DNA of 64,000 bases from Methanohalobium evestigatum Z-7303 (GTDB lineage Archaea > Halobacteriota > Methanosarcinia > Methanosarcinales > Methanosarcinaceae), in contig NC_014253.1 in assembly GCF_000196655.1 (NCBI RefSeq), positions 744,001 through 808,000 on the forward strand, given 5' to 3'. The notes under the pieces were generated by a model that was not told the origin of the DNA, searched no databases, and saw only the letters and a list, made by a program, of their open reading frames with translations. Each line of letters starts with the position of its first letter. Positions within the stretch are counted from its first letter, which is position 1. Below, piece after piece: positions 11,896-30,838 of this stretch. Both the position numbers and the translations under genes were made by a program.

Positions 11896-12063
11896 TTATT
11901 TAATAATCCCCTGTTCTTTAAGCTGTTTTCTAAACAGCACTTGCCTTTTCCATCTTGCAACATCAGAAGATGGTTTTTTCCTTTTTGATTTCTGTTTTTT
12001 GATTATGTTATCAAGATAACGCAAGTCATTTTCCATAGCATCATCATTTATTTTTTTCTGCAT
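11896..12063 (-). CDS. Small basic hypothetical protein (55 aa)
   Basis: A 55-residue frame tail-to-tail with the preceding gene (8-base gap). It is rich in lysine and arginine (KKQKSKRKKPSSDVARWKRQ) with the pattern of an amphipathic helix, and could bind nucleic acid. The ribosome site is weak. The compact placement between neighbours and the lack of other content supports it, but I recognise no family. Confidence 0.42.
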   Translation of the reverse strand: MQKKINDDAMENDLRYLDNIIKKQKSKRKKPSSDVARWKRQVLFRKQLKEQGIIK

Positions 12064-12284
12064 AATTAAACCACTAAATCATGAATATATTAGCCATATA
12101 CACTTAATGATATGTTCGTAGAGGTATTTAAAAGGATTGTCTAGATATATACATACATATATAAATATTAAAACAAAACTTTTAAAGGTTTAAAGTCGCC
12201 AAAAATTTCAACGCTTTTATAATATTTAAGGCAGAAAAATCAACAGCATCATTTATTATATATATCTATAATTCATAATAATGT

Positions 12285-12460
12285 GATTGACAGCAGACGT
12301 AGAGGATAAGGAATAATTCTACATCTGCTTAAAAGTAGAGACGAGCGGATTTTATGGTTGAGTGGGGGTTCAACCATCAGGGAGATGTGGTTTGATGTAG
12401 TTCTGGCTACCCTGCCTGTATGATGGGGGTTATCACAGGCTGGGTAGCAAACTTCTTCTA
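12285..12460 (+). ncRNA. Candidate structured small RNA with three hairpins
   Basis: The 400-base gap before the URO-D-family gene contains three consecutive hairpins. The first pairs 12293-12303 with 12318-12328 (10 of 11 bases). The second pairs 12354-12361 with 12370-12377 perfectly around loop GTGGGGGT. The third pairs 12406-12419 with 12435-12448 (13 pairs, one mismatch) and shows GGGGG in its apical loop. A TATA-like box (TTTATTATATATAT, about 12252-12265) lies about 30 bases before the first hairpin on the plus strand. No convincing frame is present. The minus strand would be the 3' end of the methyltransferase message, and there hairpin 1 pairs slightly better (a wobble pair replaces the mismatch), so the strand is not certain. 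Confidence 0.5.
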
Positions 12461-12464
12461 AAAT

Positions 12465-13541
12465 TTAGCTGTATTTTCCATACATCTCTGCTGCATCAAC
12501 CATTGCCATTACTTTAATCGGGGCAGCGTTTGGTGGGAATTCACAACCAGCTGACAATATATAACCGTTTGGAGCATTCATACCCTCTTCGATGTTTTCG
12601 CGGCAAATTTCCAGAGTTTCTTCGTAGGTGCTACTTTGAAATAGCGGTGGATTTATGTTGCCACAGATTATATCGTGGTCACCGAATGCATCTATTTGTG
12701 TTTTTATAGATGTTTCTGGTCCAAATAACCAGACATATTTACTTGACCAATCATTTTCTTCCCTCATTTTGACATAATAGGGAATGTTGGCGTTCTGGTC
12801 TGCACATGGATGCATCAGAACCGCTGGAATCCCACGTTCATTTACATGGTCATGTATTTTTTTCACGTAGGGGTAGGCAAATTCTTCAAACATTTTTGAT
12901 GATATCATGGTATTTGATTCAGATGGACCCCCGTCAAATGGTAGTAGAGTTTTTGGACCATATTTATCTGCAAAATAATCAATAGCATTGATAAACATAT
13001 CACTTACCTTATCGAGAATCTGGTGCACAACATCGGGTTTTGTCACTATCCAATTAAAAAATTTAGATGTTTCAGCAACCACCGATGCAGCAGTAAATAC
13101 ACTACCTATCTGTACTGTTACAGGCATTCCGCGTTCTGCACATTTGGATGCAACTTTATCAGCTTCTTTATAAGCGCCAGGTAATTCATTTCTAAAATCA
13201 GGCACTTTTAGGTTTTCTACATCTTCAACTGTATTTACTGGATGTTCCTCTACATAGGGAGCCCCCTGACCCTTTCGATATGGAAAACCAATTTTACCAC
13301 CTAATTCCCATGCTCCACATGAAGCATACCCATACATTGGTGTCTGTTCATAACCATGAAGGCGCATGGATGCAAACTGTGCATCAAAACACTTGTCTCC
13401 GTCTGCATAGAAATCTCCAAGTGAGATTCCTGTTATATTTGCCGCATACCCAAGAATAAAAGGAACCACAGGTACACGGTCAGGTTTTTGCCCGGACATG
13501 ACGGCTGCCATGCGTTCGGGCGGAGTCATTCTTGTACTCAT
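12465..13541 (-). CDS. URO-D-family methylcobamide:thiol methyltransferase (MtaA/MtbA-like)
   Basis: The 358-residue protein belongs to the uroporphyrinogen decarboxylase superfamily but carries the zinc site of corrinoid-dependent methyltransferases: His244-x-Cys246 (MHPCAD) and Cys333 (SAGCEFPPNAAP). Those residues bind the thiol acceptor in MtaA/MtbA, which methylate coenzyme M. The N-terminus TPPERMAAVMSGQKPDRVPVVP is typical. No corrinoid protein or substrate methyltransferase lies nearby, so the methyl donor is unknown. It is not a haem-pathway decarboxylase by these residues. Confidence 0.78.
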   Translation of the reverse strand: MSTRMTPPERMAAVMSGQKPDRVPVVPFILGYAANITGISLGDFYADGDKCFDAQFASMRLHGYEQTPMYGYASCGAWELGGKIGFPYRKGQGAPYVEEHPVNTVEDVENLKVPDFRNELPGAYKEADKVASKCAERGMPVTVQIGSVFTAASVVAETSKFFNWIVTKPDVVHQILDKVSDMFINAIDYFADKYGPKTLLPFDGGPSESNTMISSKMFEEFAYPYVKKIHDHVNERGIPAVLMHPCADQNANIPYYVKMREENDWSSKYVWLFGPETSIKTQIDAFGDHDIICGNINPPLFQSSTYEETLEICRENIEEGMNAPNGYILSAGCEFPPNAAPIKVMAMVDAAEMYGKYS

Positions 13542-29525: not shown

Positions 29526-29584
29526 GGCAATATACGCAATCTATTTTTTAGATTCCTATACCCCACTCTTGTGCGTATATTGCC
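29526..29584. repeat. Long perfect inverted repeat with inner hairpin
   Basis: GGCAATATACGCA (29526-29538) is repeated in inverse as TGCGTATATTGCC (29572-29584), a perfect 13-base match enclosing 33 bases. Inside, AATCTA and TAGATT form a second stem over a run of T. It lies between a small gene and the rRNA methyltransferase gene, without a T tract after the outer arm, so a plain terminator is not obvious. It could be a small RNA or a protein-binding cruciform. Confidence 0.55.
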
Positions 29585-30484: not shown

Positions 30485-30511
30485 ATGCCAAAGATTATTA
30501 AAGAAAGTCAA
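30485..30511 (+). pseudogene. Peroxiredoxin gene, 5' fragment (before IscB element)
   Basis: ATG plus eight codons (MPKIIKESQ) behind an AGGGGG ribosome site and a TATA-like stretch (ATATAATATAA). The codons join in frame to TTG GAT GAA at 32115 if the IscB element is removed, restoring a normal peroxiredoxin N-terminus. This is the intact start of an interrupted gene. Confidence 0.8.
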
Positions 30512-30838
30512 CTACCCCTCCCTAACTGAAGCAAATGCTTCAGTTGAGGAAGGAGCTTGTTTCCATAAAGCAAGTTCCTGGTTGACCAGACCACTGGATA
30601 CCGGTTGAACATGTCAAAGAAAAGTCCAGTAAACGATACCGGAGAATACAACAGTAGTCACCCTGGGATGCCGCCTCAGTCCCTTGCTCTGAGAGTGCAG
30701 TTTAAAGAGTTCCGGCGGGGTAGGAACAGTGACTGTACTTTTAAACCTCCGGTAATCCGGTCGAGAGGAAGTCGGAAGTCAGGACTGAACCCCGGCAAGT
30801 CCTGACCTACGCACAACTCCCTTGAGGAGGAATTACAA
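30512..30838 (+). ncRNA. Omega-RNA region of the IscB element
   Basis: The 327 bases between the element's left end and iscB hold no gene but are dense in GC-rich pairing segments, unlike the AT-rich surroundings: the left-end hairpin, GAAGGAGCTTG...CAAGTTCC, CAGTCCC..., and GTCAGGACTGAACCCCGGCAAGTCCTGAC near the 3' end. In IscB systems the guide RNA scaffold is coded exactly here, with its 5' guide reading from the host flank next to the left end. The guide would then be the first codons of the peroxiredoxin gene (about 30495-30511). Exact RNA ends are unknown. Confidence 0.75.

Follow-up and report, generated by a model that had tools for sequence, protein, structure and literature searches.

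The stretch of Methanohalobium evestigatum Z-7303 DNA analyzed here (the window, 64,000 nucleotides) carries at 12285-12460 what is, on its sequence, almost certainly a member of a multicopy family of structured RNA genes, which we call family A. We propose that family A may be a set of co-regulated, multicopy antisense or sponge RNAs directed against small RNAs that present a C-rich loop (C-loop RNAs), a tentative reading that we place only just short of an even chance. The copies themselves, their structure, a promoter block, a relation to the reverse strand of the C-loop genes D1 and D2, and complementarity to C-loop RNAs are the parts of this proposal that sequence supplies. The features discussed are collected in Table 1.

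Table 1. Features of the window and related loci in the source genome (G000); positions are those of the window unless a genome position is given
Feature	Position	Strand	Remarks
Window	G000:C1:744001-808000		G000: 2,406,232 bases, two contigs
55-aa ORF	11896-12063	-	Flanks the gene-free gap
Promoter block	12191-12284	+	AT-rich upstream element, then TATATATA; matched by model R2
TATA-like box TATATATA	12257-12264	+	Ends 20 nt 5' of 12285
Predicted small RNA (family A copy)	12285-12459	+	Putative start about 12285-12290, putative end inside T-rich 12452-12459
Hairpin P1	12292-12329	+	Both-side changes at 4 of 11 modeled pairs
Domain P2	12340-12393	+	Irregular lower helix; apex hairpin 12354-12377 with GAGUGGGGGUU; G5 at 12364-12368
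Hairpin P3	12406-12448	+	G5 loop 12425-12429, then a T-rich stretch
URO-D family gene	12465-13541	-	PF01208, E 1.6e-58; convergent; stop codon 16 nt from P3
Weak candidate C-loop RNA	29527-29583	+	R3 14.7 bits, E 0.33; hairpin by eye; not counted as a member
Locus B (L061)	G000 670050		R2 E 3.2e-16; 93% conserved in G001
Locus C (L062)	G000 2115100		R2 E 4.8e-4; 91% conserved in G001
D1	G000 661866		C-loop hairpin; pair with D2
D2	G000 1555430		Pair with D1
E1	G000 1384017		C-loop hairpin; pair with E2
E2	G000 1087674		Pair with E1

A three-hairpin locus in a gene-free gap

The initial annotation described three strong stems in a gene-free gap, two of them with GGGGG in the loop, and a TATA-like box at the right distance on the plus strand. 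Each of these elements was recovered: P1, the P2 apex, and P3 lie where they had been placed, the G5 runs sit in the P2 and P3 loops, the box stands at its expected spacing, and no ORF of at least 50 amino acids was found between 12064 and 12464. The region 12285-12460 gave a minimum free energy of -57.8 kcal/mol (z -2.85) on the plus strand and -53.8 (z -7.20) on the minus strand, and none of 200 shuffles folded equally well on either strand. The neighboring URO-D family gene, which we take to be methylcobamide:CoM methyltransferase-like, does adjoin the locus as annotated, but it is one among several genomic contexts in which family A copies occur.

Searching Rfam 15 over 12285-12460 returned no family at gathering score. 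With E values allowed up to 5, the single match was sub-threshold (RF02279, 26.2 bits against a gathering score of 70) and lay on the opposite strand at 12225-12297. Elsewhere in the same window, a HEARO RNA (RF02033) scored 93.4 bits at 30507-30776 on the plus strand.

Family A is multicopy and found in one genus

A DNA search of 60 genomes found the sequence at 10 places in G000, at 8 in a second Methanohalobium genome (G001), and at none in the other 58. Using 10 of the first 18 copies, we built a covariance model (R1), which detected 11 loci in G000 at E ≤0.001, plus two weak overlapping matches (E 0.04 and 0.24), and 9 loci in G001. No match was obtained in 109 further genomes of the taxonomic family with Infernal under stricter filters, placing members in 2 of 111 genomes, both Methanohalobium. 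Thus, the RNA candidate of the initial annotation holds as a structured and probably plus-strand RNA but is not a single RNA, being one of 11 loci of a family seen only in its genus. The eleventh G000 copy, L039, is a distant one (35.4 bits) without the promoter block.

A dispersed, multicopy family could consist of repeats or small mobile elements that have no function themselves, and the sequence near L039 looks to us like an IS605-type end. However, five copy pairs match between G000 and G001 in both flanks, with RNA identities of 89 to 98% (for the window copy, 94% in each flank and 95% in the RNA). This implies that at least those five predate the species split and are not recent insertions. 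Together with the covariation in the hairpins described below, these pairs make the mobile-element explanation very improbable. Four more copies have a one-sided flank match, two of these to one G001 copy, and for two G000 copies no clear counterpart was found in G001, a draft genome for which ortholog pairing is incomplete. Two further sequences, L045 and L046, come from the ends of contigs and could be chimeras.

Upstream of three copies (L021, L022, and L028) we observed similar small proteins with a ...LLDS/MLDS...WIPK-like ending; the three that we submitted to Pfam gave no match.

Covariation and the transcribed strand

The initial annotation had named covariation in relatives as a check on the structure, and it was observed. 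In a 20-sequence model alignment, 15 of 42 pairs changed on both sides (36 cells), a value reached by none of 500 shuffles; P3 accounted for 7 of its 14 pairs. Pairing cells amounted to 93.8%, compared to 38 to 43% when the sequences were slid, although the alignment was fitted to the model structure, which flatters the former figure.

We used wobble pairs to ask the strand of the RNA. Across P1, P2a, and P3 in 18 sequences, there were 55 G-U cells (allowed on the plus strand) and 23 A-C cells (G-U on the minus strand), counted with the distant rows L039 and L050 left out, two unfavorable pairs kept in, and a constant G-U pair left out. The difference was carried by P3 (26 to 4), with a weak strand signal in P1 (26 to 16) and P2a (3 to 3). 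Mean minimum free energy was also lower on the plus strand (-53.7 compared to -39.9), while the mean folding z favored the minus strand (-5.21 compared to -4.13), which we attribute to G- and U-rich strings folding well by chance. By eye, roughly 11 of the 20 aligned rows have a TATA-like block on the C side too, and transcription may therefore use both strands. Taken together, we hold with good confidence that the transcribed strand of family A is the plus, G-rich strand.

Three other ideas were set aside. A short ORF after GGGGAG (AUG UGG...) has its frame broken between copies and leaves no room for a ribosome site. A G-quadruplex across the loops would not be general, since L001, L002, L003, and others have no GGG in the P1 loop. 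A REP-type repeat, suggested by GTAG before several hairpins, was dropped once the opposite-strand promoter emerged.

A shared upstream block extends to two further loci

Upstream of the RNA, 16 copies can be aligned over about 90 bases. From these 16, the window copy among them, we built a sequence model (R2), which matched G000:C1:756191-756285 (window 12191-12285) at E 5.8e-22 as a training member. In G000, R2 identified the ten promoter-bearing family A copies, by construction, and two new places, loci B and C, with weaker matches beginning at E 0.02. Downstream of the block, B and C carry different hairpin sets with GGGG in the loops. The gene about 590 nt downstream of locus C is presumably ThiC-like.

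Within the block lies the 19-mer GCGTTGAAAATTTTAACGC. With as many as 3 mismatches allowed, the genome has 9 distinct sites for it, all of them beside RNAs of this group (7 of the 10 promoter-bearing copies, locus B, and locus C). The reversed pattern had 0 sites in the whole genome. The window copy and two other copies differ from GCGTTGAAAATTTTAACGC at more than 3 positions and fall outside the nine. This 19-bp element looks like a dedicated control site, and the promoter that the family A copies share is perhaps co-regulated.

Repeated purine-rich loops under a common upstream control element are also features of the Csr/Rsm decoy RNAs, and family A might in the same manner be a decoy for a protein that reads G runs in loops. 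G-rich loops recurring in the otherwise different stems of B and C would fit, as would an upstream element found only beside these RNAs. A possible reader is the DUF1699 protein (PF08004), which is encoded within about 170 bp of 4 of 11 copies (635700, 926691 [a fragment], 1588694, and 1760221), but 5 of the 9 DUF1699 places in the genome have no nearby copy. Csr RNAs present GGA in their loops as the binding site for CsrA; the family A P2 loop, GUGGGG(G)U, has no GGA in 18 of 18 aligned copies, and GGA is present in the P1 loop and linker of many copies. With no known protein to read the loops, and with a C-loop partner as the simpler account of the motif, we regard a protein decoy as quite improbable.

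Putative C-loop RNA genes in Methanohalobium

The octamer GAGTGGGG, which is part of the family A central domain, outnumbered its reversal 43 to 6 in G000 and 47 to 10 in G001. Summed over the other 38 genomes, the counts were 1,321 and 1,369, with single ratios from 0.24 to 6.0 and two of 38 above 2; one genome (G023) also had a high ratio, at small counts (12 to 2). The GAGTGGGG sites comprised coding matches, family A, locus B, and further intergenic hairpins including singletons and pairs, two of the sites being on the plasmid. On that plasmid (L171; G000:C2:24244 and 26387), two similar stretches hold GGGGGUUUGAGUGGGG inside apparent hairpins, as judged by eye. Also by eye, we noted at L082 (G000:C1, about 163032) in the gap that follows a gene, a hairpin with GGGGG in its loop and a run of seven T behind it.

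From these sequences we recognize at least four putative C-loop small RNA genes in G000: D1, D2, E1, and E2. A model (R3) of the order-wide C-loop RNA described below finds these four, at 49 to 60 bits, among 27 sources. R3 gave no match to family A or locus B on either strand. In the window it produced the weak candidate of Table 1, the reverse strand of which contains GAGUGGGG at 29561-29568.

A predicted order-wide C-loop RNA in Methanosarcinales

Loci B, D, and E have in common a 17-mer, GCGGGTTGRGGAGTGGG. Searching for it in the GTDB 220 species genomes gave at least 118 stretches, of which the 80 listed were used. Among these 80 listed matches, 50 belonged to Methanosarcinales, Methanoperedens, or ANME-2. 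The closing arm of the hairpin paired at 9 of 9 positions in 43 of 52 listed sites in those groups, compared to 3 of 32 in other organisms; when 8 of 9 pairs sufficed, the contrast was smaller (49 of 52 compared to 17 of 32). An alignment (A6) of 31 of 47 eligible sequences had compensated changes in 4 of 10 stem pairs, with a core that is invariant because it is the search pattern; the innermost stem pair does not hold in 10 of 30 distinct rows.

Among the listed matches, 35 of 45 sites had a TATA-like 8-mer (at least 7 of 8) before the hairpin on the C-rich strand, compared to 7 of 45 on the G-rich strand. In 37 of these 45 sites, the best-matching 8-mer of the C-rich strand stood 22 to 30 nt away from the hairpin. 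For this count, 11 of the 50 listed Methanosarcinales rows were left out by eye (L197, L202, L206, L220, L221, L228, L229, L232, L242, L245, and L258) because the flank was short, the closing arm was not clean, or the hairpin was of another kind, and four Methanohalobium loci were added; L148 is the counterpart of L210, and related species are not independent. The placement of the box implies that the order-wide RNA is probably read from the C-rich strand, in the probable order stem, U-rich part, AACCCCCACUCCCCAA, and stem.

Probable C-strand transcription of D, E, and the order-wide RNA raises the question of whether family A is also read this way. If the opposite strand were the functional one, the copies would be C-loop small RNAs whose several C-rich sites mask G-rich ribosome-binding sites, in the manner of Listeria LhrC. 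The minus-strand folding z and the C-side TATA-like blocks would agree with this. However, the wobble counts, above all in P3, point to the other strand, the upstream block is on the G side at ten copies and at B and C, and the C side of the window copy is coding sequence with no TATA-like block. We therefore consider it unlikely that the opposite strand is the functional one.

Searching Rfam with ten C-loop RNA loci gave no match on the C-loop RNA, and none of the papers listed in a text search with its core sequence was related, as judged by title. E1 is flanked by what we take, from sequence, to be rfcL-like and top6B-like genes. On seven contigs, the C-loop RNA follows a presumed rfcL-like gene, and two of these have a presumed top6B-like gene on its far side.

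By analogy, the loop of the C-loop RNA could mask G-rich ribosome-binding regions. Masking of ribosome-binding sites has been reported in Methanosarcina mazei for sRNA41 and for loop 2 of sRNA154 (PMC5867862); the likeness to sRNA41 is one of description only. The suggestion in the initial annotation that C-rich loops would mask ribosome sites thus fits the partner C-loop RNA better than it fits family A. GAGTGGGG begins 13, 16, and 22 nt before the start codon in L160, L156, and L143, respectively, a hint that these are candidate mRNA targets, from a count made with no control for G-rich ribosome sites. In L141, GAGTGGGG lies 34 nt away from the closest start on the list (TTG).

We also considered viral spread and rejected it. 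The family A apex pattern was found in 0 IMG/VR contigs and the 17-mer in 6, where R3 gave two weak matches (17.8 and 13.8 bits) that we took as chance.

Family A is related and complementary to C-loop RNAs

We aligned the central domain of 8 family A copies to the reverse complement of the C-loop genes. Against D1 and D2, z was 4.0 to 10.3; against E1 and E2, the same alignment was weaker (-0.5 to 4.8). AAGTAG, GGACGAGCG, GAGTGGGG, and GGGGAG-TGTGGTT are common to the family A center and the reverse complement of D, while the stem around the loop differs. By this alignment, the central hairpin of family A descends from the reverse strand of a D-type C-loop RNA, and domain P2 of the window copy is related to the reverse strand of D1 and D2.

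The central hairpin sequence GAGUGGGG(G)UU is the perfect complement of the C-loop RNA loop, AACCCC(C)ACUC. All 10 promoter-bearing copies have perfect complementarity of 10 to 11 nt to D1, D2, or E1. The partner follows the loop: copies with four G match D1, and copies with five G, the window copy included, match D2 and E1. In 9 copies the match scored is that of the P2 loop; in L036 it is one of equal length (10 nt) in GGACGAGCGG, although this copy has the same loop, GAGTGGGGTT. In the control, which shuffled letters rather than dinucleotides and counted single RNA pairs, 18 of 880 RNA pairs reached at least 10 nt. The RNAduplex energies ignore internal folding. Complementarity to D is, given the alignment above, partly due to descent. 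The P3 G loop is without an identified partner, which counts against the sponge reading.

The initial annotation had suggested that the exposed G loops pair with target messages. The loops are indeed suited to base pairing, but the best partner found for the P2 loop is a C-loop small RNA rather than mRNAs directly. Pairing straight to C-rich stretches of mRNA, with no C-loop partner, would also explain why exposed G loops are conserved, and AACCCCACT occurs at 12 sites outside family A, compared to 5 for the reversed control. However, at least 3 of those 12 sites belong to other G-rich RNA loci, and in no case does an ORF of at least 90 amino acids start within the next 100 nt (one site is 147 nt before such a start), making direct pairing to mRNA distinctly unlikely.

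At locus B, the C strand carries a TATA box at the usual distance from the hairpin (23 nt), and the other end of the locus bears the G-strand block. By this arrangement, it resembles what would be an intermediate between a C-loop gene and family A.

Discussion

Our model is that the family A genes would be transcribed on the G-rich strand from the shared promoter, giving an RNA that folds into three hairpins. The P2 loop would pair with the loop of the C-loop RNA, and family A would titrate or antagonize the C-loop RNAs as an anti-sRNA or sponge. Titration would free G-rich ribosome-binding regions that C-loop RNAs otherwise mask. Expression, the strand used in vivo, the pairing, and any effect on targets are the steps that we infer. 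In the simplest history, a promoter came to read a C-loop gene backwards, and the antisense RNA so produced would have gained hairpins and multiplied.

Known systems share parts of this model. RosA of Bacillus subtilis is a dedicated small RNA that pairs with the small RNA RoxS and affects RoxS level and activity (PMC8216469). Like RosA, family A is proposed to be aimed at another small RNA. However, RosA is described in that report as a single RNA of a bacterium, whereas family A has ten or more copies in an archaeon, is related to the reverse strand of its proposed partner, and is known from sequence alone. Listeria LhrC, as described, comprises five small RNA copies under one control, with redundant, CU-rich sites that bind mRNA (PMC4132741). 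Family A is similar in having several copies under one control and putatively redundant binding sites; its loops are G-rich, it would expose CU-rich sites of the LhrC type only if the minus strand were transcribed, and the wobble counts favor the plus strand. In motif, LhrC resembles the order-wide C-loop RNA more than it does family A.

In Methanosarcina mazei, sRNA162 is a 191-nt RNA with three stem-loops that is linked to the control of methylamine methyltransferase; it and sRNA171 are two copies duplicated together with their promoter, a linker acts on the mRNA, and homologs are reported only in Methanosarcina (PMC3510493). The three stem-loops, the promoter duplicated along with the RNA, and the methyltransferase link recall family A. 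By description the two are set apart, since sRNA162 has two copies and a single-stranded linker, while the R1 members are in Methanohalobium.

If the model is correct, these loci would form the first archaeal sRNA/anti-sRNA network: an old Methanosarcinales C-loop small RNA and a one-genus sponge family, derived from a backwards-read small RNA gene (locus B keeps both promoters) and amplified to ten or more copies under its own control element. We hold this broader claim tentatively, somewhat short of an even chance.

Few archaeal small RNAs have an understood mechanism. We know of no archaeal small RNA sponge, and among the matches listed in an open-access text search for "sponge RNA" there was none by title. 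Genetics exist in Methanosarcina, where the conserved C-loop small RNA would, if the model is true, be testable. Methanohalobium would then show a counter-regulator evolving by antisense transcription and amplification.
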